Assembly (NCBI GenBank): GCA_903910555.1
Contig: CAIVZZ010000031.1
Coordinates: forward strand, 62,001-126,000
DNA length: 64,000 nucleotides
Source of the DNA: an uncultured Gemmatimonadota bacterium
GTDB lineage: Bacteria > Gemmatimonadota > Gemmatimonadetes > Gemmatimonadales > Gemmatimonadaceae
Direction: 5' to 3'
Position numbers and translations under genes: made by a program. A model generated the notes under the pieces. That model searched no databases. It saw only the letters and a program-made list of their open reading frames with translations, and was not told the origin of the DNA. This document shows positions 25,808-47,860 of the stretch, piece after piece; the first letter of the stretch is position 1; every line of letters begins with the position of its first letter.

Positions 25808-26607
25808 TACTTGATCCAGTGCCCGAGGCGGCTCCAACGGATGTCCGTGATAAACGACACCGCGCGATCGCTCTCGTTCGAGGGCACATACGAGTAGTAC
25901 ACGAACATCGGGCGCCCGCGCACGTTCGCGCGCGGCACGAATCCCCAGTAGCGGCTGTCCTTCGAGTTGTAGCGATTGTCACCCATCATGAAGTAGTGAC
26001 CCGCCGGCACGACGAACGGCCCCCAGGTATCGAGCTTCGGCTGCGCAGGCGCTGCGCCGAATCGTGATTCCTTCAGTCCGACTTTCTTCTGCCAGTCGAA
26101 CAGCTCGCTCTCCATGTTCGGATCACCCTTGTCCTGCTCGGGCGACGTATACCCCTGCCGCTGCGCGATTCCATTCACATACACAACGCCATCGCGGCCG
26201 TAGAGCGTATCGCCCGGCATCCCGATCAATCGCTTCACGAGCGTCGGTGTCGGATCGTCGCCGATCGCCGCCTCGTCCGCCTGATACGGCGACTCAAACA
26301 CGACGATGTCGCCGCGACTCGGATCCGCATACCCCGGCAGACTCGTATGCGTGAACGGAATGTGCGGACCGTACACGATCTTGTTCACGAACAGCCAGTC
26401 GCCCACCAGCATCGTCGGAATCATGCTCCCCGACGGAATGCGATACGCCTCGATCAAAAACGTCCGCAGCACCAAAAAGATGGCGATCGTCCCCGCGAGC
26501 GACTTGAACCACTCCCAGTAATGACGAACGCCGCCGCCGCCCGACGACTTCCCGCCGCGCGCTGCAGCCACACTCCCTTTCGGTTTATCAGATTTTTTCG
26601 CAGCCAC
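25807..26607 (-). CDS. lepB: Signal peptidase I
   Basis: The 266-residue protein has a charged Lys/Gly-rich N terminus, one membrane helix (SLAGTIAIFLVLRTFLI), the nucleophile in IPSGSM (Ser61), the general base Lys125 in TLVKRLIGMPGD, and the boxes GDNRYNSKDSRYWGFV. It cleaves signal peptides of exported proteins at the outer face of the inner membrane. Signals of the form LxAQ are common among the neighbours and fit this enzyme. The extra loop of about 35 residues after the catalytic Lys is usual for environmental bacteria. Confidence 0.95.
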   Translation of the reverse strand: MAAKKSDKPKGSVAAARGGKSSGGGGVRHYWEWFKSLAGTIAIFLVLRTFLIEAYRIPSGSMIPTMLVGDWLFVNKIVYGPHIPFTHTSLPGYADPSRGDIVVFESPYQADEAAIGDDPTPTLVKRLIGMPGDTLYGRDGVVYVNGIAQRQGYTSPEQDKGDPNMESELFDWQKKVGLKESRFGAAPAQPKLDTWGPFVVPAGHYFMMGDNRYNSKDSRYWGFVPRANVRGRPMFVYYSYVPSNESDRAVSFITDIRWSRLGHWIK

Positions 26608-38372: not shown

Positions 38373-41300
38373 TTATGCCTTCAGCTCCGCCGATTTCCTT
38401 CCGTGCGCCGGCACTTCGTACTCCCCCGTCGGCGGCCTCGTCGGGAACTTGAAGAAGCGTGCGAACCACAATCTCCAGTCGTCCAGAATCTCGTAGATCG
38501 TCGGAATCACGAGCAGCGTCAGGAACGTCGACGTGATCACACCGCCGATGATTGCACGTCCGAGCGGTGCACGGAAATCCGCTCCTTCTCCGCGCCCGAG
38601 TGCCACCGGAATCATGCCGGCAATCAGCGCGAGCGTCGTCATCATGATCGGCCGCAGTCGTACGCGGCCAGCCTCGATGATCGCCGTGCGCCGGTCCTTT
38701 CCTGACTCCTGCCCCCACTTCGCGAAGTCAATCAGCAGAATCGCATTCTTCGCCACGATTCCCATCAGCAGCAGCACGCCGATCAACGACATGATGTTGA
38801 GCGTGTCGTTCGTAATGATCAGCGCGATCACCACGCCAATGAGCGAAAGCGGCAGCGAGATCATGATGGCGAGCGGCTCGAGGAACGAGCCGAACTGCAT
38901 CACGAGAATCAGGTACATCAGCAGCACCGCGATTCCCATCGCGGCAAACATTCTGCTGAACACCTGCTGCTGATCCTTCACCTCACCGCCCGCTGAGAAC
39001 CGATATCCGGCCGGCAGTGTGAACGTCGCGAGCTTTGCAGCGATATCGCCGTTCACTTCACCGAGCGAGCGTCCCTGCGTGTTCGCCTCGACCATTGCAA
39101 CGTTGTCGCGATCGAGGTGACTGATGATCGCCGGTCCGAGCCCTGGAGTGACCGTCGCGATCTGACCGAGTGGCATTACGGTTTCTCTCGTGCCGTTCTG
39201 GCCGCCGACTACGAGTGGCAGCCGTTCGATATCCGAAATCTTCGTGCGCGCCTCGGGCGTGAGCCTGATGCGGACCTTTCTGTTCTGGCCCGCGGGATCG
39301 ACCCAGTCGCCCGCGTCGATGCCCGCAAACGCCGGCCGCAGCGACTGTGCGATCTGTCCGACTGTTACTCCCATCGATCCAGCCAGCGCACGGTTCAGTG
39401 AGATCTCAAGTTCAGGTTTCTGTCCCTTGGTCGAGAGTCCGACGTCAACCGCACCTGGAATCGCCTTCACGATTTTCATAACGGAATCAGCAAGCCGGTT
39501 GAGCACCACGGCATCTGCACCGCGCAGCTCAACTTGAATCTGTTTGCGGGCGCCGCCGAATCCGCTCGTGAACACATAGACATTCGCGCCGCCGATCTGC
39601 GTGGATTCTTTGCGCAGCAGTTCGCCGAAATCATTCTGCGACATCGAGCGGTTCCTTTTCTGCACCATGCGGACATAGACGGTGCCGAGATCTGTCGACC
39701 CCAGCTCGCCGCCCGGCTGCTGGCCGGCGCTCGATCCACCGACCGTCGAGAAGGTGTAGTCCGTGAGATCCGTGTGGCTGCGTGCGAGCCGCGCGGCCTC
39801 TTCAGTTTTCATTTTCGTGTATGCGAGGTTCGAGCCCGGCGGTGTCTCGACCTGAATCGTGAGTTCGCTTCGATCCGAGTTCGGCACAAAGCCCACACCG
39901 CCGAATTTCACCTGCAGCACGATCGCGCCGGCAAATGCGCCAACGGCAAGCGCCGCCATCCACCAGCGATGGTCGAGCGCCCAGCCGATCACATGCGTGT
40001 ATCGCTCAGCCTGCTTGTTGAACCAATCGTTGAACTTGTCGAGCGCGCGCGCGACGGCATTGCGGCGCTCATGACTCTCGACCTGCGGATCGGCCCAGTA
40101 CGCCGAGAGCATCGGGTCGAGCGAGAACGAAACGAACAGCGATACGAGCACCGCGCACGCGATCGTCAGCGCGAAGGGCTTGAACCATTGTCCGGCGACG
40201 TCACCCATGAACCCGATCGGCACGAACACCGCCACGATCGAGAACGTCGTCGCGCTTACAGCCATGCCGATTTCGTCGGTGCCGTCGTGCGATGCTCTGA
40301 AATGGTCTTTCCCCATCTCGATGTGCCGCACGATGTTTTCACGCACCACGATCGCGTCGTCAATCAGAATACCGATCGCCAGCGAAAGTCCGAGCAGCGA
40401 CATCGTGTTCAGCGTGAAGCCGAACGCGAACACCGCGATGAAACTCGAGAGTACGGAAACCGGCAGCGCGAGACCGGTGATAACAGTTGAACGCCACGAG
40501 TTCAGGAAGACGAACACCACGAGCACCGTGAGCAGTGCGCCTTCAATCAGCGCCTCCTCGACGTTCTCCACCGATCGATCGACATGATCGCCTGAGTTTT
40601 GTACGACATCCAGACTCGTCCCTTTCGGAAGCGTCGCCTTGATCGCCGCGACCTTCTCGAGCACCTGCGCCGACACCTGTGACGTACTGAAGCCTTTCGA
40701 CTTCTTCACCATCACGCCCACAGCATCGTGTCCGTTGTACAGCGCCGACGACGACGGCTCTTCTGTGCCGTCGCGAGCAGTCGCGACTTCGCCCAGTCGA
40801 ATCGGGCGCCCATTTCGCTGCGCCACAATCAACGCCAGGAAGTCTTCCGGCGTTTCGAGCTTTCCTTTGAGCCGGATCGCGCGTTCATCGAGCGAGCCAT
40901 TCACCTTGCCCACCGGCGATGCCAGATTCTGCGCCTGCAGTGCCGCAACGAGCTGCGACACGCTCACGCCCGCCGCCTGCATCGCGTCCGGCTTGATCTC
41001 GACCGTCAGCTCGCGAATGATGCCGCCAACAACGTCCGCTTCGGCAACGCCCGGAATCGAGCGCAGTTCTTTCGTCAGCCCCGGATCGGCAATGCGCGTC
41101 AAACTCGGCGCATCGAGCACCTTCGAGTTGAGGGAGAGCTGCACGATCGGCTGATCGGACGGATCGAAGCGCGAAAGCACGGGCTCCTTCATTTCTACAG
41201 GCAGCTGATCGCGGATTCCCGAGATTTTATCGCGAATGTCCTGCGATGCCTGCTGAATGTCCTTCTCGAAGACGAAGAACACGGTGATGTTCGCGAAACC

Positions 41301-41558
41301 GTCCTGCGCGGTGCCCTGCATGCGATCCACGCCGCTGATACCGGTGATCGCTTCTTCAATGCGGTCGAGCACTTCACGCTCGACCACATCGGGCGACGCA
41401 CCCGGATATGGAATAGAGACGTTGATAATGGGCTGCGTGACGTCCGGAAACTCGTCCGTCTGCAGCTGCGCGAGCGAGAACAAGCCGAACACCACGAGCG
41501 CCACCATCGACACGATGGTGACGATCGGCCGCTTGATCGCAAAGTCTGATATGAACAC
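38373..41558 (-). CDS. RND multidrug efflux pump, AcrB-type inner-membrane subunit
   Basis: The 1061-residue protein has the standard RND plan: a first helix (FAIKRPIVTIVSMVALVVFG), two large periplasmic loops and 12 helices. The helix-4 proton relay is ILIDDAIVVREN with the DD pair. The helix-10 counterpart is GIVAKNAILLIDFA. PVLSRFDPSDQPI and GVGFVPNSDRSEL are usual first- and second-loop phrases. It would form a trimer and expel hydrophobic compounds using proton influx. It is the third gene of an operon after TetR-TolC and the periplasmic adaptor, with nine bases between adaptor and pump. Confidence 0.93.
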   Translation of the reverse strand: MFISDFAIKRPIVTIVSMVALVVFGLFSLAQLQTDEFPDVTQPIINVSIPYPGASPDVVEREVLDRIEEAITGISGVDRMQGTAQDGFANITVFFVFEKDIQQASQDIRDKISGIRDQLPVEMKEPVLSRFDPSDQPIVQLSLNSKVLDAPSLTRIADPGLTKELRSIPGVAEADVVGGIIRELTVEIKPDAMQAAGVSVSQLVAALQAQNLASPVGKVNGSLDERAIRLKGKLETPEDFLALIVAQRNGRPIRLGEVATARDGTEEPSSSALYNGHDAVGVMVKKSKGFSTSQVSAQVLEKVAAIKATLPKGTSLDVVQNSGDHVDRSVENVEEALIEGALLTVLVVFVFLNSWRSTVITGLALPVSVLSSFIAVFAFGFTLNTMSLLGLSLAIGILIDDAIVVRENIVRHIEMGKDHFRASHDGTDEIGMAVSATTFSIVAVFVPIGFMGDVAGQWFKPFALTIACAVLVSLFVSFSLDPMLSAYWADPQVESHERRNAVARALDKFNDWFNKQAERYTHVIGWALDHRWWMAALAVGAFAGAIVLQVKFGGVGFVPNSDRSELTIQVETPPGSNLAYTKMKTEEAARLARSHTDLTDYTFSTVGGSSAGQQPGGELGSTDLGTVYVRMVQKRNRSMSQNDFGELLRKESTQIGGANVYVFTSGFGGARKQIQVELRGADAVVLNRLADSVMKIVKAIPGAVDVGLSTKGQKPELEISLNRALAGSMGVTVGQIAQSLRPAFAGIDAGDWVDPAGQNRKVRIRLTPEARTKISDIERLPLVVGGQNGTRETVMPLGQIATVTPGLGPAIISHLDRDNVAMVEANTQGRSLGEVNGDIAAKLATFTLPAGYRFSAGGEVKDQQQVFSRMFAAMGIAVLLMYLILVMQFGSFLEPLAIMISLPLSLIGVVIALIITNDTLNIMSLIGVLLLMGIVAKNAILLIDFAKWGQESGKDRRTAIIEAGRVRLRPIMMTTLALIAGMIPVALGRGEGADFRAPLGRAIIGGVITSTFLTLLVIPTIYEILDDWRLWFARFFKFPTRPPTGEYEVPAHGRKSAELKA

Positions 41559-41567
41559 GGCGGCTCC

Positions 41568-42749
41568 TTAGTTCTTCTTCGGTGACGATGCTTTTGACGA
41601 ATCAACTTTCGACTGTGCGCCGCTCGTCTGGTCGGCCGACGGTGCCGCGGCCGAAACCTTCACCGGTGCTCCCGGCGTGATGCCCTGCGCGGCACCAATC
41701 AGGAGCGTGTCGCCGGCGGCGAGTCCGCTCTTGATCTCCACCAAGTCCGATCCTTCATCGCGCATCCCGAGCGTGACTTCAACAACCTCGGCTTTCCCAT
41801 TCTTCAGTCGCGAAACCAAAGGCTTCACGCCGCGCTGATCGATTGCCGATGCCGGCACGGTGAGTCCTTGGCGCGTCGAACTCGAAACGCGTCCGGTCGC
41901 ATAGAGCCCTGCAACGAGTCCGTTCCCCGCATTCGGAATGCGAACGTAGAGACGGACCTGTCGCGTCTGCGGATCCGCACTCGGATAGATGTTCGTAATT
42001 GTCCCTGTGAAATCGCGGCCCGGATATCCGGTCACCGCGAACTTCACCGGCGATCCCATGTGAACCAAGCTGAGCTGCTCGGCCGGCACCGCACCCTCAA
42101 GGCGCATGGTGCTCGGGTCGACGAGCACGAACAGCGCCGTTCCCGGGCTGACGATGTCGCCGGCGTTGACCTGGCGCTCGCTCACGACGCCGTCGTACGG
42201 CGCCTTGATCACAGTGTTGTCGAGATTCTTCTGCGCGCTCGCGAGCCGCGACTTGGCATCCTCGAGCGAAGCCTGCGCGGCGAGATCGGTGCGCTTCGCG
42301 GCTTCGAGTGCGTTATCCGCAACGGCACCCGCGGCGAGCAACCGCTCCGAACGTCCCTCTTCGCGGTGCGCGATATCGGCGGCGAGCTGCGCCTGCGTCA
42401 CGGCGCTCTTCGCCGAAAGAAATGCTTCGCGCGGAACCATGTCATCGATTCGCGCGAGGGCCGTCCCCGTCGTCACATGTGCGCCGGGTTCGGCGAGGAC
42501 CGCGATGACCGCGCCCGAAACTTCAGAACGGATCGACGCCGTTTTTTCCGCCATGAGCGATCCGTTAATCGCCGGTCCGCTGTTGAGCGTCGCAACCGCG
42601 ATCACCGCGATTGCTTCCGGGCCGATCGTGACCGCCGCGGGACCCGCCGTCGCCGAAGCGGCAGCCTCGGACTTTCCGCATGCGGCCAGGGCAACAATGA
42701 ATGCGGCAGTCAGCGCCGTGTTGAATGTGTTTTTGCGACTCGCGAGCAT
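41568..42749 (-). CDS. RND periplasmic adaptor (membrane fusion) lipoprotein
   Basis: The 393-residue protein has a lipoprotein signal with lipobox LAAC (Cys24), lipoyl-type halves (SEVSGAVIAVLAEPGAHVTTGTALARID and APYDGVVSERQVNAGDIVSPGTALFVLV) around an alpha-hairpin, then beta-barrel and membrane-proximal domains ending in a Ser/Lys-rich tail. It would bridge the AcrB-type pump and the TolC channel. I chose the ATG at 42749, directly before the signal peptide. A longer reading to 42815 would translate the heptad array and has no conserved content. Confidence 0.92.
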   Translation of the reverse strand: MLASRKNTFNTALTAAFIVALAACGKSEAAASATAGPAAVTIGPEAIAVIAVATLNSGPAINGSLMAEKTASIRSEVSGAVIAVLAEPGAHVTTGTALARIDDMVPREAFLSAKSAVTQAQLAADIAHREEGRSERLLAAGAVADNALEAAKRTDLAAQASLEDAKSRLASAQKNLDNTVIKAPYDGVVSERQVNAGDIVSPGTALFVLVDPSTMRLEGAVPAEQLSLVHMGSPVKFAVTGYPGRDFTGTITNIYPSADPQTRQVRLYVRIPNAGNGLVAGLYATGRVSSSTRQGLTVPASAIDQRGVKPLVSRLKNGKAEVVEVTLGMRDEGSDLVEIKSGLAAGDTLLIGAAQGITPGAPVKVSAAAPSADQTSGAQSKVDSSKASSPKKN

Positions 42750-42788
42750 CTGAGTATTCCCGGTATGAGTTCTTATCACGTTTTTATC

Positions 42789-42816
42789 CGCCGTCCGTCG
42801 TCTGCCGTCTGTCATC
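42789..42816. repeat. Heptad array overlapping the stop of the TetR-TolC gene
   Basis: Four 7-base units CGCCGTC, CGTCGTC, TGCCGTC, TGTCATC, followed by a weaker fifth (TGTTAAC), match the consensus of the array at 33633-33673. The array overlaps the stop codon of the TetR-TolC gene (42812-42814) and lies in the leader of the adaptor gene. Confidence 0.7.
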
Positions 42817-44902
42817 TGTTAACTGGCAAGTCTTTCAGAAGCGCCACACGCAGGCGCGCCACTTCGAGATCGCGCGCAGCGAGCACACGGTTCAGCCGCG
42901 CCTGCTCGTACTGTGTGCGCGACTGCTGGAGCTCAACCTGAGTCGAGATTCCCTCGCGAAAGCGCACTTCGGCGATCGAATACGCGCGCGCAGCCTGTGT
43001 GTCGGTGCCGACGCTCGCCGAGTAACTCGCGTCTGCCTCCTCGAGCTGCGCGAGCGCAGTGCGCGCATCGAGTGCCGCGAGCTCTTTCACCTGATCGAGC
43101 GACTGTCTCGCTTCGGCAAGATTCGCCTCGGCAACCATCCGGTCGCCGGTGAGCTTTCCGCCGAGGAATAGCGGCACGGTCAATCCGAATGACACCGTCC
43201 AGTTCGGGTAGTAGGTGCCGAAGGTGTTCTGCACGAACGTCGCATCGTTCGGATACCCGTAGCGCTGGTAGGTCGAGCTCACCTGCGCCGACGGCAGCCG
43301 CTCCCACTTCGCAGCACGCAGCGCGTACTCCTGCGCCGTGATGTTCGCCTCGGCCTGACGCACGCTCGAGCGATGATTCACGCTCGTGTCGGGCACGAGT
43401 CCGTGATCGCCGCCGGGCATCGTGATCGGCTGGCTCAGCTGAAGCGGCTTCGGGATCGAATCCGCGACGCCCTCATCACGAATAGACGTGGTGAGATTCA
43501 GCCGTTGTGTCAGCGAAATCCCGAGCAGCTGGCGCAGATGCAGAAATGCGATCTCGCGGTTGCTGCGCGCCTGAATCACAACGGGGCGCTGATTGTCGCG
43601 AGCCACACGAGCGCGGAGCAGATCGAACTCGGCCGCGGATCCAACCGCTCGCGAAACTGTCGTCTGCTGAAGCGTCCGCTCGGCCTGCGCGAGCGTGCTG
43701 TCTTCGATCTCGACGAGTTTGTCGCTCGCGACGGCGGTGAAGTACGCCTGCGCAACGTCGAGCGCGACCTGCGCGCGCGCGGCATCTAGGCCGATATCCG
43801 CGGAGGTGCGCGCTGCTGCGGCACCTGCAACCGCCGAGCTCACTCGTCCTGCGGTGAACAAGTTCTGCGACACCGTGACGCCGAGAATCATGGTATTCGG
43901 CGCGGCGAAGATTTTCTCGAGAGACTGGATGCTGCTCGACGAACTGCTGCCCGAGCTTCCGGTCGTTCCAGTCCCCGTTGAACTCTTTGTTGTGTCAGCC
44001 GGCGCAGATCCGGCGATCGCCGCAAACTGACTCTCGAGGGTGCGCTGATAAGAAAGCGATCCATTGACCTGCGGCAGGTACTGCGCGCGCGCCTGATATT
44101 GTCCGCCGCTCGCTCGCAGCACGCCGGCTTCGGCTGTCTTCACCGTGTGACTGACGCGGCCGCCGAGTTTGAGCGCATCTTCGAGCGAGATCGCAACCAC
44201 CTGCGTCGCGCCGGGTTCAGCGGTGCGCTGCTGTGCGTGGAGCGGTGCGACCGCACCGCCGACGAGCAACACAAGTCCGGCGAGCAGCGCGCGACGGCGT
44301 CCGTTCGAGCGTGATTTGTGTACGGTGCCGTCGAAGCCGAGCGACGTGAGACAGAGGCGCGCGTAAATGCCCGGCGCGGCAGAAGTCGGCTGCGGAAACG
44401 CCTGCGGCATCATGTCGCGTGCGATTGCGTCGTGAAACACGCTGCTGATCAGCATGGATGTGGCGGCGGGGATGTCAGCGTCGCTGCTCGTCAGGCCGGC
44501 GTCGTGGACCCGTTGCAGATAATCGCGCAGCGCCGTGTATGTCATGTTCGCGCCCTGCGTGATGCACTTCGGCATCGCAGGATTCTCCTCGAACTCGCTC
44601 ATCGCTTTGCGGATGATCGAACGCATGTTGCTGATCGCGCGCCGCTTGTGCGTGCAAAACTCCGTGAGCTCGGCAACCGGGTCCACCGGCACAGCGGGCA
44701 ATTCCGCGCGGATTGGTTCCGCGCTGTGAATGCGCAGTGCCTCCAGCAGGAGCGCTGTCTTGCTTCCGAAGAGCCGGAAGAGCGTCACTTCATTGACGCC
44801 GGCTTCCTGAGCGATGCGGCGGGTGGTCGTGCCGCGAAAGCCGTGCTCTCCGTAGAGTCGTGCGGCGGCGCCGAGGATGTGGTCTTTGGTCGGTGCAGTC
44901 AT
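42812..44902 (-). CDS. TetR-type regulator fused in frame to a TolC-like outer-membrane channel
   Basis: A single frame of 696 codons. Residues 1-190 are a complete TetR/AcrR regulator: the DNA-binding part is ILGAAARLYGEHGFRGTTTRRIAQEAGVNEVTLFRLF-like in order and spacing, followed by a helical ligand domain. Residues 195-223 are a classical signal peptide (basic HKSRSNGRRR, hydrophobic core, LHA before QQ). Residues 224-696 are a TolC-family protein with coiled-coil hairpins, a low-complexity Ser/Thr/Gly loop near 335-350 and the usual length of about 470. No stop lies between the parts, and no ATG, GTG or TTG lies between about residue 166 and the signal core. The ATG at 44902 begins the TetR fold. 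It is the first gene of the RND operon. Confidence 0.85.
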   Translation of the reverse strand: MTAPTKDHILGAAARLYGEHGFRGTTTRRIAQEAGVNEVTLFRLFGSKTALLLEALRIHSAEPIRAELPAVPVDPVAELTEFCTHKRRAISNMRSIIRKAMSEFEENPAMPKCITQGANMTYTALRDYLQRVHDAGLTSSDADIPAATSMLISSVFHDAIARDMMPQAFPQPTSAAPGIYARLCLTSLGFDGTVHKSRSNGRRRALLAGLVLLVGGAVAPLHAQQRTAEPGATQVVAISLEDALKLGGRVSHTVKTAEAGVLRASGGQYQARAQYLPQVNGSLSYQRTLESQFAAIAGSAPADTTKSSTGTGTTGSSGSSSSSSIQSLEKIFAAPNTMILGVTVSQNLFTAGRVSSAVAGAAAARTSADIGLDAARAQVALDVAQAYFTAVASDKLVEIEDSTLAQAERTLQQTTVSRAVGSAAEFDLLRARVARDNQRPVVIQARSNREIAFLHLRQLLGISLTQRLNLTTSIRDEGVADSIPKPLQLSQPITMPGGDHGLVPDTSVNHRSSVRQAEANITAQEYALRAAKWERLPSAQVSSTYQRYGYPNDATFVQNTFGTYYPNWTVSFGLTVPLFLGGKLTGDRMVAEANLAEARQSLDQVKELAALDARTALAQLEEADASYSASVGTDTQAARAYSIAEVRFREGISTQVELQQSRTQYEQARLNRVLAARDLEVARLRVALLKDLPVNR

Positions 44903-44950
44903 TGGGTGGTCCGGGGATCTCAAAACGGTGATTGGCCGCAGATGCAGTGT

Positions 44951-44992
44951 GATGCAAGTGGCCACTTGCATCGAAAGCAAGCGGGTACTTGC
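44951..44992. promoter_or_regulatory. Two palindromic operators upstream of the TetR-TolC gene
   Basis: Site 1 has the core GCAAGTGGCCACTTGC, inside a 22-bp perfect palindrome at 44951-44972. Site 2 at 44977-44992 reads GCAAGCGGGTACTTGC and agrees with the core at 13 of 16 positions. Their centres (44961.5 and 44984.5) are 23 bp apart, about two helical turns. They lie 49-90 bases upstream of the TetR start and 77-118 upstream of the divergent sigma-factor gene. That is what autoregulation by the TetR part predicts, possibly with control of the sigma gene. Confidence 0.7.
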
Positions 44993-45068
44993 ACCAAACG
45001 CAACGGGCGCTCGGGAAGTTTCAGCGGGGGTTAAACAGCGGGCCACCGGCCGGCGTCCTACCTTCGAG

Positions 45069-45605
45069 ATGATGAGCGCAGCTGCCGAGATCCCCGAACC
45101 TGACGACGTGCTGCTGGCCCAGCGCGGCGATTCCGCCGCGTTCGAACGGCTATATCGGCTGCAAGCGGGTCAGGTATATGCGCTTGCGTTGCGTCTGACA
45201 GGAGCCAGGGAGCCCGCGCTCGAACTCACGCAAGACGCGTTCGTTCGCGCATGGGAGCGGCTCGAGTCGTTCAGACGCGAGAGCGCGTTCGGTACATGGT
45301 TACACAGACTCACGCTGAACGTGTTTTTGAATCAGACGCGCGCAGATACGCGACGGCGGAACCGCGTCGATGTGCTCGACGATGAAACCGACGCGCCGGT
45401 TGTCGGAACGGACCCCGCCGAGCGCATGGATCTCGAGGCCGCGATCTCCAAACTGCCTCGAGGTGCCCGAGTCGCGTTCGTGCTGCACGAAATCGAAGGG
45501 TTCAGCCACGAAGAAATCGCAGCAACGCTGGGTCTCGCCGCGCCAACCGTGCGATCGCATGTATTCCGCGCGAGACGTCTTTTGATGGAGATGCTCGACC
45601 GATGA
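45069..45605 (+). CDS. ECF-family RNA polymerase sigma factor
   Basis: The 178-residue protein has sigma region 2 (FERLYRLQAGQVYALALRLTGAREPALELTQDAFVRAWERLESF, followed by FGTWLHRLTLNVFLNQ) and region 4 (LPRGARVAFVLHEIEGFSHEEIAATLGLAAPTVRSHVFRARRLL). Region 3 is missing, as in all ECF factors. Tandem ATGs at 45069 and 45072 are both possible. The next gene starts inside its stop codon (ATGA) and encodes a one-helix membrane protein, the usual anti-sigma arrangement. The frame can be extended to 44877, but that runs through the operator region and is not conserved. Confidence 0.92.
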   Translation: MMSAAAEIPEPDDVLLAQRGDSAAFERLYRLQAGQVYALALRLTGAREPALELTQDAFVRAWERLESFRRESAFGTWLHRLTLNVFLNQTRADTRRRNRVDVLDDETDAPVVGTDPAERMDLEAAISKLPRGARVAFVLHEIEGFSHEEIAATLGLAAPTVRSHVFRARRLLMEMLDR

Positions 45606-46312: not shown

Positions 46313-47860
46313 ATGCATCGCTTTGTCAGAATCGCATTGTGCGCGCTCGTGCCGACGGCTGGTACAGCGCAATCGCCCAAGATCGAACCGATCAAGACTA
46401 GCGGCGCAAACGCGGTCTCCATTTCCAATTCGCTCGGCTATGTGCGCGTCGAGGGTTGGGATCTGGATTCCGTGGCGGTGACCTCTGCATCGGGGGATAG
46501 TCTGACAATCCGACGCGACGCGACTGGCGAGATTCGCATTAATCCGCCAATGACGAGCCTCGGCGTGAATATCGGACGTTCGGACATCATCGTGCGAGTC
46601 CCACGAACCATTCGGGTCAACGTCAACGGTCTTCAGACAAAGATCGATATCAGCGGCGTAACAGGTCGCGTCGACGTCGATGACGGATTCGAAGGTGACA
46701 TCAAGATCGCCGGCAATCTCACCGAGCTGAACGTCGATGCATCGCAGAGCGAAATCGAGCTCGACGTGACTACACCCTACCTGCGCGCGAAAACCGCATC
46801 AGGTCGAATTCGCTGGACCGGATCGAGCGACGACGCGTCGCTTACAACCGTGACCGGTCGCATCACCATCGAGGCTGCGAAAATCGGCCGTGGCCGTTTC
46901 GAGTCGACGAGCGGCGATCTGCATTTTCATGGCGGAGTGACCCCGCACGCCTCGGTTGTGTTCGAAACGCACAGCGGTGACATCACAGCCGATTTCACTC
47001 CAGGCACGAACGTTCAAGTGGTCGCCGTCGGCGCGGTAATCGATCTTTTCGACCATCGGCTATTCGCAGACACTGCAGAATTCCGCAGCACCAAAGCGCA
47101 GACCGGCGAGAAACCAACGGCCGTCGTGACCTTTCGGACTTTCAAAGGAAAGGTCACAGCACGCGTGGACGGAACGAATACTGCCGGCGTTGGCGATCCG
47201 TTCTCGGATTCCAACTTCGTGCTTCTCCCGCCCGGAACCTTCACGATGGGCAACTACGAATACCGCGCGGAACACGAGGTGACGCTGACGCATTCGTTCT
47301 GGATGCAGAAAACAGAAGTCACACAAGCACAGTGGATTGCCGTCATGCACAAAAACCCGAGCAAGTTCGCTGTGTGCGGACCGAACTGTCCGGTCGAAAA
47401 TGTCAGCTATGCCGACGTGCAGCTCTTCATTGCAGCGCTAAACAAGCAGTCGCCGGACAAACACTACCGCTTACCTACGGAGGCGGAGTGGGAATATGCC
47501 GCGAGAGCCGGGACCACCGGATGGTATGGCACGCCAGGCGACGAACGCCTCGGCGGATGGACGAAGAACAACAGCCTGGGTACAACCCATCGAGTTGGCG
47601 AACTACAGCCGAACAGCTGGGGGCTGTACGATATGCAAGGCAATGTGTGGGAGTGGGTGAGCGACTGGTACTACTCCCCTTATCCGCCTGGTCCGGCAAC
47701 CGACCCCACGGGGCCGGCGACCGGCACGAGTCGCGTCGTCCGCGGCGGTGCGTGGGACAACGACGCCGTCGACACCCGAACGTTTACTCGAGCCTACAAG
47801 CTCCCGACCGGCGCCGACTACAATAAGGGTTTTGGCTTTCGCCTCGCGAGAACACCGTAA
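46313..47860 (+). CDS. Exported DUF4097-like/SUMF1 (formylglycine-generating-enzyme-like) fusion protein
   Basis: The 515-residue protein has a signal peptide (RFVRIALCALVPTAGTAQ). About 270 residues of repeated short strands follow (VSISNSLGYVRVEGWD, TASGRIRWTGSS, FESTSGDLHF, ETHSGDITADF), the DUF4097 beta-helix pattern. The last 210 residues are a SUMF1/FGE-sulfatase domain: LLPPGTFTMG, KTEVTQAQW, RLPTEAEWEYAARAG, MQGNVWEWVSDWY, RVVRGGAW, and FGFRLART. Catalytic FGE needs a Cys pair after RGGSW; here that stretch (DNDAVDTRTFTRA) has none, so the domain is probably structural or binding. It belongs to the sigma/anti-sigma module, nine bases after the anti-sigma gene. Confidence 0.8.
   Translation: MHRFVRIALCALVPTAGTAQSPKIEPIKTSGANAVSISNSLGYVRVEGWDLDSVAVTSASGDSLTIRRDATGEIRINPPMTSLGVNIGRSDIIVRVPRTIRVNVNGLQTKIDISGVTGRVDVDDGFEGDIKIAGNLTELNVDASQSEIELDVTTPYLRAKTASGRIRWTGSSDDASLTTVTGRITIEAAKIGRGRFESTSGDLHFHGGVTPHASVVFETHSGDITADFTPGTNVQVVAVGAVIDLFDHRLFADTAEFRSTKAQTGEKPTAVVTFRTFKGKVTARVDGTNTAGVGDPFSDSNFVLLPPGTFTMGNYEYRAEHEVTLTHSFWMQKTEVTQAQWIAVMHKNPSKFAVCGPNCPVENVSYADVQLFIAALNKQSPDKHYRLPTEAEWEYAARAGTTGWYGTPGDERLGGWTKNNSLGTTHRVGELQPNSWGLYDMQGNVWEWVSDWYYSPYPPGPATDPTGPATGTSRVVRGGAWDNDAVDTRTFTRAYKLPTGADYNKGFGFRLARTP

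Follow-up and report, generated by a model that had tools for sequence, protein, structure and literature searches.

Repressors of the TetR/AcrR type that control RND efflux operons, such as AcrR, MexL, MtrR and NalD, have a TetR fold, are encoded at the head of the RND operon or next to it, and have palindromic operators in the promoter. Channels of the TolC/OprM type (PF02321, OEP) contain two OEP repeats in a full TolC fold and have MFP and RND partners. The gene described here shares the fold, gene position and palindromic promoter sites (putative operators) of the former and the repeats, fold and partners of the latter. However, the known repressors are separate soluble proteins, whereas this one is the N-terminal part of a channel precursor, and the signal of the channel lies within the chain, some 190 residues in from the N-terminus and behind a DNA-binding protein.

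A near precedent for a bacterial polyprotein that signal peptidase cuts in two is FbcH of Bradyrhizobium japonicum, a cytochrome b/c1 polyprotein reportedly divided into its halves at an internal signal. The two parts of FbcH belong to the same membrane complex, whereas one product here would be a transcription factor of the cytoplasm and the other a channel of the outer membrane. Regulators of the ToxR/CadC type consist of a DNA-binding domain, one membrane helix and an extracytoplasmic domain. The fusion has the same order of parts, but the DNA-binding domain of ToxR/CadC is a winged HTH instead of a TetR domain, and these regulators are not known to be cleaved into an outer-membrane channel. 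In the FecR/RseP-processed regulators of E. coli, a cytoplasmic regulatory domain also lies N-terminal to a membrane segment, and a site-2 protease frees the FecR domain after cleavage on the periplasmic side (PMC8144685). FecR is a dedicated signal transducer, whereas release of TetR from the fusion is something that we infer.

No report of a TetR-TolC fusion, or of a transcription factor so joined to an outer-membrane protein, was found in the open-access literature, nor any matching report of internal signal peptides ahead of cytoplasmic domains. That one polypeptide should contain both a cytoplasmic transcription factor and a channel of the outer membrane is unexpected, and such genes have become fixed repeatedly within a single family of soil and freshwater bacteria. 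They offer natural cases, open to testing, in which a long folded cytoplasmic domain would precede a cleavable Sec signal, signal peptidase would split a bacterial polyprotein, and part of an efflux pump would be synthesised 1:1 with its repressor. Annotation pipelines may label these genes as TetR regulator or TolC alone, or may call the start wrongly.

The fused frame and its operon

The window, that is the whole stretch of 64,000 nucleotides analysed here, carries on its minus strand a single 696-residue frame with no stop, running from an ATG at 44902 to the end of a TGA at 42812 (coding part 44902-42815, stop codon 42814-42812). Reading 42812-44902 on the plus strand was ruled out, since that translation contains stops. 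An earlier note on this DNA had described a TetR regulator, a signal peptide and a TolC-family channel in this one frame. The reading frame, Pfam matches and an AlphaFold model confirm the description, with TetR at residues 1-187, the signal at about 188-223 and the channel at 224-696.

The TetR/AcrR-family regulator domain (44342-44902, minus strand) has nine helices. Its helix-turn-helix DNA-binding part (residues 9-55, 44738-44878, minus strand) matches TetR_N (PF00440; 2.2e-15, 56.6 bits against a cut-off of 24) and falls within a region of low dN. In the AlphaFold model, built from 50 sequences (mean pLDDT 86.6, pTM 0.60), helices extend over residues 6-187, where the TetR fold ends, and include the all-helical ligand/dimerisation domain that follows the HTH. 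Foldseek matched this N-terminal part with whole TetR chains, such as HlyIIR and MexL, at about 5e-5. The joint (residues 188-204, 44291-44341, minus strand), delimited on the codon listing, ends in the basic n-region KSRSNGRRR, of net charge +5. Hydropathy and motif place the signal-peptide hydrophobic core and cleavage region at residues 205-223 (44234-44290, minus strand), with the core ALLAGLVLLV and a predicted cut at A223|Q224 (LHA|QQ, residues 221-225). The model has a helix at 192-213, a low-confidence hinge at 213-231, and from residue 236 the TolC fold with its four barrel strands and long coiled helices.

The mature TolC/OprM-type outer-membrane channel (residues 224-696, 42815-44233, minus strand) contains two stretches of OEP (PF02321; 2.2e-41, 142 bits in all against a cut-off of 22). 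Foldseek matched this part with TolC, OprM and CusC, the best values being 6.4e-17 for a TolC model and 1.3e-14 for 1ek9. As modelled, both folds are complete, one on either side of the signal helix. Both halves are typical of their families, save that the N-terminal Sec signal peptide usual for TolC/OEP channels is absent and the signal is internal. The mature part is still of the TolC type, and the TolC assignment is therefore limited to the channel domain.

The fusion gene is the head of a TetR/TolC-MFP-RND operon. The ATG of the RND periplasmic adaptor (MFP; 41568-42815, minus strand) overlaps the TolC stop as ATGA, and the AcrB-type RND inner-membrane transporter (ACR_tran) lies at 38373-41558 on the same strand. 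Both were assigned from reading frames, Pfam and synteny, and the gene order of the operon is conserved across relatives. Upstream of the TetR start, sequence motifs point to a putative operator, GCAAGTGGCCACTTGC (44954-44969), which is the core of the perfect palindrome GATGCAAGTGGCCACTTGCATC, and to an operator-like site, GCAAGCGGGTACTTGC (44977-44992). These are the only two copies of GCAAGY-N4-RCTTGC in the window. The same palindrome is found upstream of the TetR start at 55 of the 67 orthologous loci compared (19/21 fused, 36/46 unfused) and is absent from a further 282 kb of sequence taken from these loci. A sigma-70-type promoter was sought near the operators and not found, a result that is weakly informative for this phylum. 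Shine-Dalgarno pairing is absent at the tetR starts of the orthologues, where its median is about 0 kcal/mol and so lies below that of random internal sites in strength. Judging from the region 44903-45000 and its counterparts in the orthologues, a leaderless mRNA for tetR is possible. A gene for an ECF sigma factor (44877-45605) diverges from the fusion operon. Behind it, 46313-47860 on the plus strand encodes a 515-residue protein with a DUF4097 'toastrack' and an FGE-sulfatase (formylglycine-generating-enzyme-like) domain.

Spread and origins of the fused state

Fused frames were found at 21 of the 67 loci, all without a stop and all in one family, probably Gemmatimonadaceae. Among 18 genomes of the window's genus, 15 have the locus, 6 as a fusion and 9 as two genes. 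In the genus g47, the fusion is present in every one of the 14 genomes whose locus is complete; in G173, also of g47, the locus is fused too, with a match that covers residues 1-478 only, and this genome is outside the count of 14. G47 is probably Gemmatimonas, because its named relative L072 is a Gemmatimonas phototrophica MAG. The remaining fusion, L024, belongs to genome G019, outside both genera. A search of genomes of the same lineage, which the earlier note had proposed, brought up the open fusion again in 20 other genomes, beyond chance, and showed that the relatives are a mixture of fused and unfused loci rather than always two genes. No further fusion was found outside the family in 288 genomes of the order and 395 drawn from the phylum, where very distant ones would fall below the cut-offs.

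In the two-gene relatives, tetR and tolC overlap by 1-4 nt or are separated by a few to some tens of bases. At several loci of other genera (L025, L048-L050, L054, L082-L088, L111, L112, and in G390), the two genes are separate and in the same frame, with a single stop, mostly TGA, and a start a few codons further on; these loci are thus a few changes away from fusion. A similar arrangement with one in-frame TAG is present in G064:C232 and G390:C210, which belong to different families, and transfer or draft-genome contamination is possible there. G019 carries several paralogous tetR loci (L024/L102, L111, L112, L113), of which one is fused and at least two have tolC separate but in frame.

On the TetR and TolC trees, parsimony places four changes to the fused state, in clade A (L009-L012), clade B (L013, L014), g47 and L024. 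The grouping of A, B and g47 as one clade was rejected (AU p = 9.7e-16), which rules out for these three a single ancestral fusion that was split later, whereas A and B alone as one clade was not rejected (p 0.07). With L024 separate, the fused state therefore has at least three origins, and four by parsimony. The joints differ between lineages in accord with separate origins: the signal core of A, B and L024 follows a basic linker, whereas in g47 there is no linker and the last TetR helix is directly continuous with the core (for example TYVRLFLRSLGATVALLLFALLPARASAQ). Close unfused relatives already have a Lys/Arg-rich TetR C-terminal tail (for example KPARRAKPAKRRTA), so that loss of the stop would supply the signal peptide with a ready n-region.

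Selection was assessed by comparing the window protein with its three nearest fused relatives. Over residues 1-55, dN is 0.047-0.051 and dS 0.68-1.08, a dN/dS of about 0.05-0.07. For TetR, dN is 0.05-0.2, and for TolC 0.085-0.12, against a dS of 0.7-1.1; these substitution rates likewise indicate purifying selection on TetR residues 56-185 and on TolC. The joint and signal change faster than both domains, as signal peptides do. Purifying selection, together with the kept operators, suggests that the fused regulator most likely retains the ancestral autoregulation.

Signal peptide and proposed processing

A positive n-region, a hydrophobic core and an [A/S]|Q site were recognised in 21/21 fusions by simple rules (hydropathy and motif) rather than with SignalP, and these place an internal signal peptide with a predicted signal peptidase I site between the two domains. 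Gln follows the predicted site in every one of the 21 fused proteins, as it does in many that are unfused (42815-44902 and orthologues L009-L065). A 'Q-rule' has been described for Bacteroidetes as specific to them, with no mention of Gemmatimonadota (PMC5837995). The window genome encodes two signal peptidases of the Peptidase_S26 family, as well as M50 site-2 proteases. One of the two, signal peptidase I, was located in the window by domain match (25894-26517, minus strand), and the second lies outside the window. After leader-peptidase cleavage in E. coli, RseP clears away the remnant signal peptides, and it also frees the cytoplasmic fragment of FecR (PMC8144685); by analogy, release of TetR by a site-2 protease would be reasonable.

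Since the export signal is mid-chain, the cell probably must cut the chain at export to obtain a working regulator and a working channel. The reading that we consider probable is a natural bacterial polyprotein: translation would yield the whole chain, and signal peptidase I would cut it at A223|Q224 into a cytoplasmic or membrane-stubbed repressor and a channel that is exported. The ancestors would have had an autorepressor tetR and a channel tolC adjacent, co-directional and overlapping or close, as the unfused relatives still do. In several lineages the tetR stop and the tolC start, absent from the present products, would have been lost through small frame-keeping changes. The n-region of the TolC signal peptide would now be provided by a basic stretch at the TetR end in the window's genus, and by the last TetR helix itself in the Gemmatimonas-type genus. 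Translation of the whole chain would start at the TetR ATG, as suggested by the lineages without an internal start. TetR would fold and remain in the cytoplasm while the internal signal inserts as a loop and the TolC part crosses via Sec. After the cut by signal peptidase I, TolC would reach the outer membrane, and TetR, with a hydrophobic C-terminal stub of the signal peptide, would stay at the inner membrane or be freed by a site-2 protease. It would still repress its own operon, presumably by binding the conserved GCAAGY-N4-RCTTGC operators. A point against this processing scheme is that a folded domain of ~190 residues before a cleaved Sec signal is unusual.

The simplest reason for the repeated fusion may be that signal peptidase restores two proteins. 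As the cut undoes the fusion, joining two overlapping genes would cost little, and the change would be nearly neutral, with 1:1 synthesis. The earlier note had proposed both that signal peptidase releases TetR and that export could feed back on efflux expression. The first idea stands as the best-supported mechanism, given the signal anatomy in 21/21 fusions and the eight fusions without a usable canonical internal start (see below); the second found no support. Under such coupling, the signal peptide would hold TetR at the inner membrane, and release would come through signal peptidase I and a site-2 protease. Slowed channel export would leave less active repressor, the efflux operon would be derepressed, and the repeated fusion would then be adaptive. 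An adaptive role in export sensing is possible; we hold the coupling scheme as a whole to be quite unlikely.

Alternative explanations

The main rival to a chain translated whole is internal initiation. In that case the frame is real, but most TolC arises from ribosomes that start near the joint, the frame itself is left over from overlapping genes, and the read-through TetR-TolC product is minor or degraded. We judge this unlikely. In its favour, 13/21 fusions have a GTG or ATG able to start an exportable TolC, namely 11 of g47, L014 (ATG and GTG) and L024 (GTG upstream of the core). In g47 this codon is GTG at the valine of YVRLFLR in 11/14 loci; it would yield MRLFLRSLGAT before the hydrophobic core, a good signal peptide, and GTG is commoner there than among the valine codons of these genes overall (46%; nominal p 0.014, uncorrected for shared descent). 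However, the codon is not fixed, being GTC or GTT in L061, L063 and L065, and unfused orthologues also have GTG there at 9/19 valines, so that inheritance accounts for it. The codon comparison thus showed no internal start universally conserved across fusions. Eight fusions (L009, L010, L011, L012, L013, L061, L063 and L065), which span three of the four lineages, have no ATG, GTG or TTG that would give TolC with a charged n-region. Among them, L012, L013 and L061 lack any canonical start near the joint, and L009-L011 have canonical starts only inside the core or at its edge. In the window, where the note had found no start codon between about residue 166 and the signal core, the first ones near the joint are indeed GTG at V211 and TTG at L212, both within the core. 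In these eight fusions the full-length chain should therefore be needed, barring a non-canonical codon. Shine-Dalgarno pairing at the candidate starts is weak and no better than random, although tetR starts also lack it, and the absence of a stop makes termination-reinitiation impossible. As to a programmed frameshift, inspection of the joint codons by eye revealed no common slippery run.

An uncleaved signal would make the protein a membrane-tethered one-component regulator of the ToxR type, with the TolC part as periplasmic sensor or anchor. The order of TetR, one hydrophobic helix and a periplasmic domain matches the ToxR/CadC layout, and the DNA-binding domain and operators are conserved. 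Yet the hydrophobic segment resembles a signal peptide and ends in a small residue and Gln in 21/21 fusions. The TolC beta-strands and long helices, moreover, are intact and selected and need outer-membrane insertion, MFP and RND partners adjoin the gene, and the window genome showed no stand-alone orthologue. We find this reading very unlikely compared with the cleaved polyprotein. Still less credible is a TetR domain dead since the fusion and carried as a passenger: the fusion does place an unusual burden on TetR, and L024 is without a consensus operator, but the low dN/dS of residues 1-55, the fused TetR parts free of stops and the operators retained in 19/21 fusions speak against it. Finally, a sequencing or assembly error, or a lost stop private to the window genome, is conceivable for any single draft genome, and the earlier note had offered it as the plain alternative. 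Its probability is now close to nil, since the relatives refute it: the fusion is present in independent genomes and fixed in whole clades. The same open joint occurs in three further species at 81-85% identity and in other clades, and the fusion is also present in the one-contig genome G175 of g47 and in genomes of 3 and 7 contigs.
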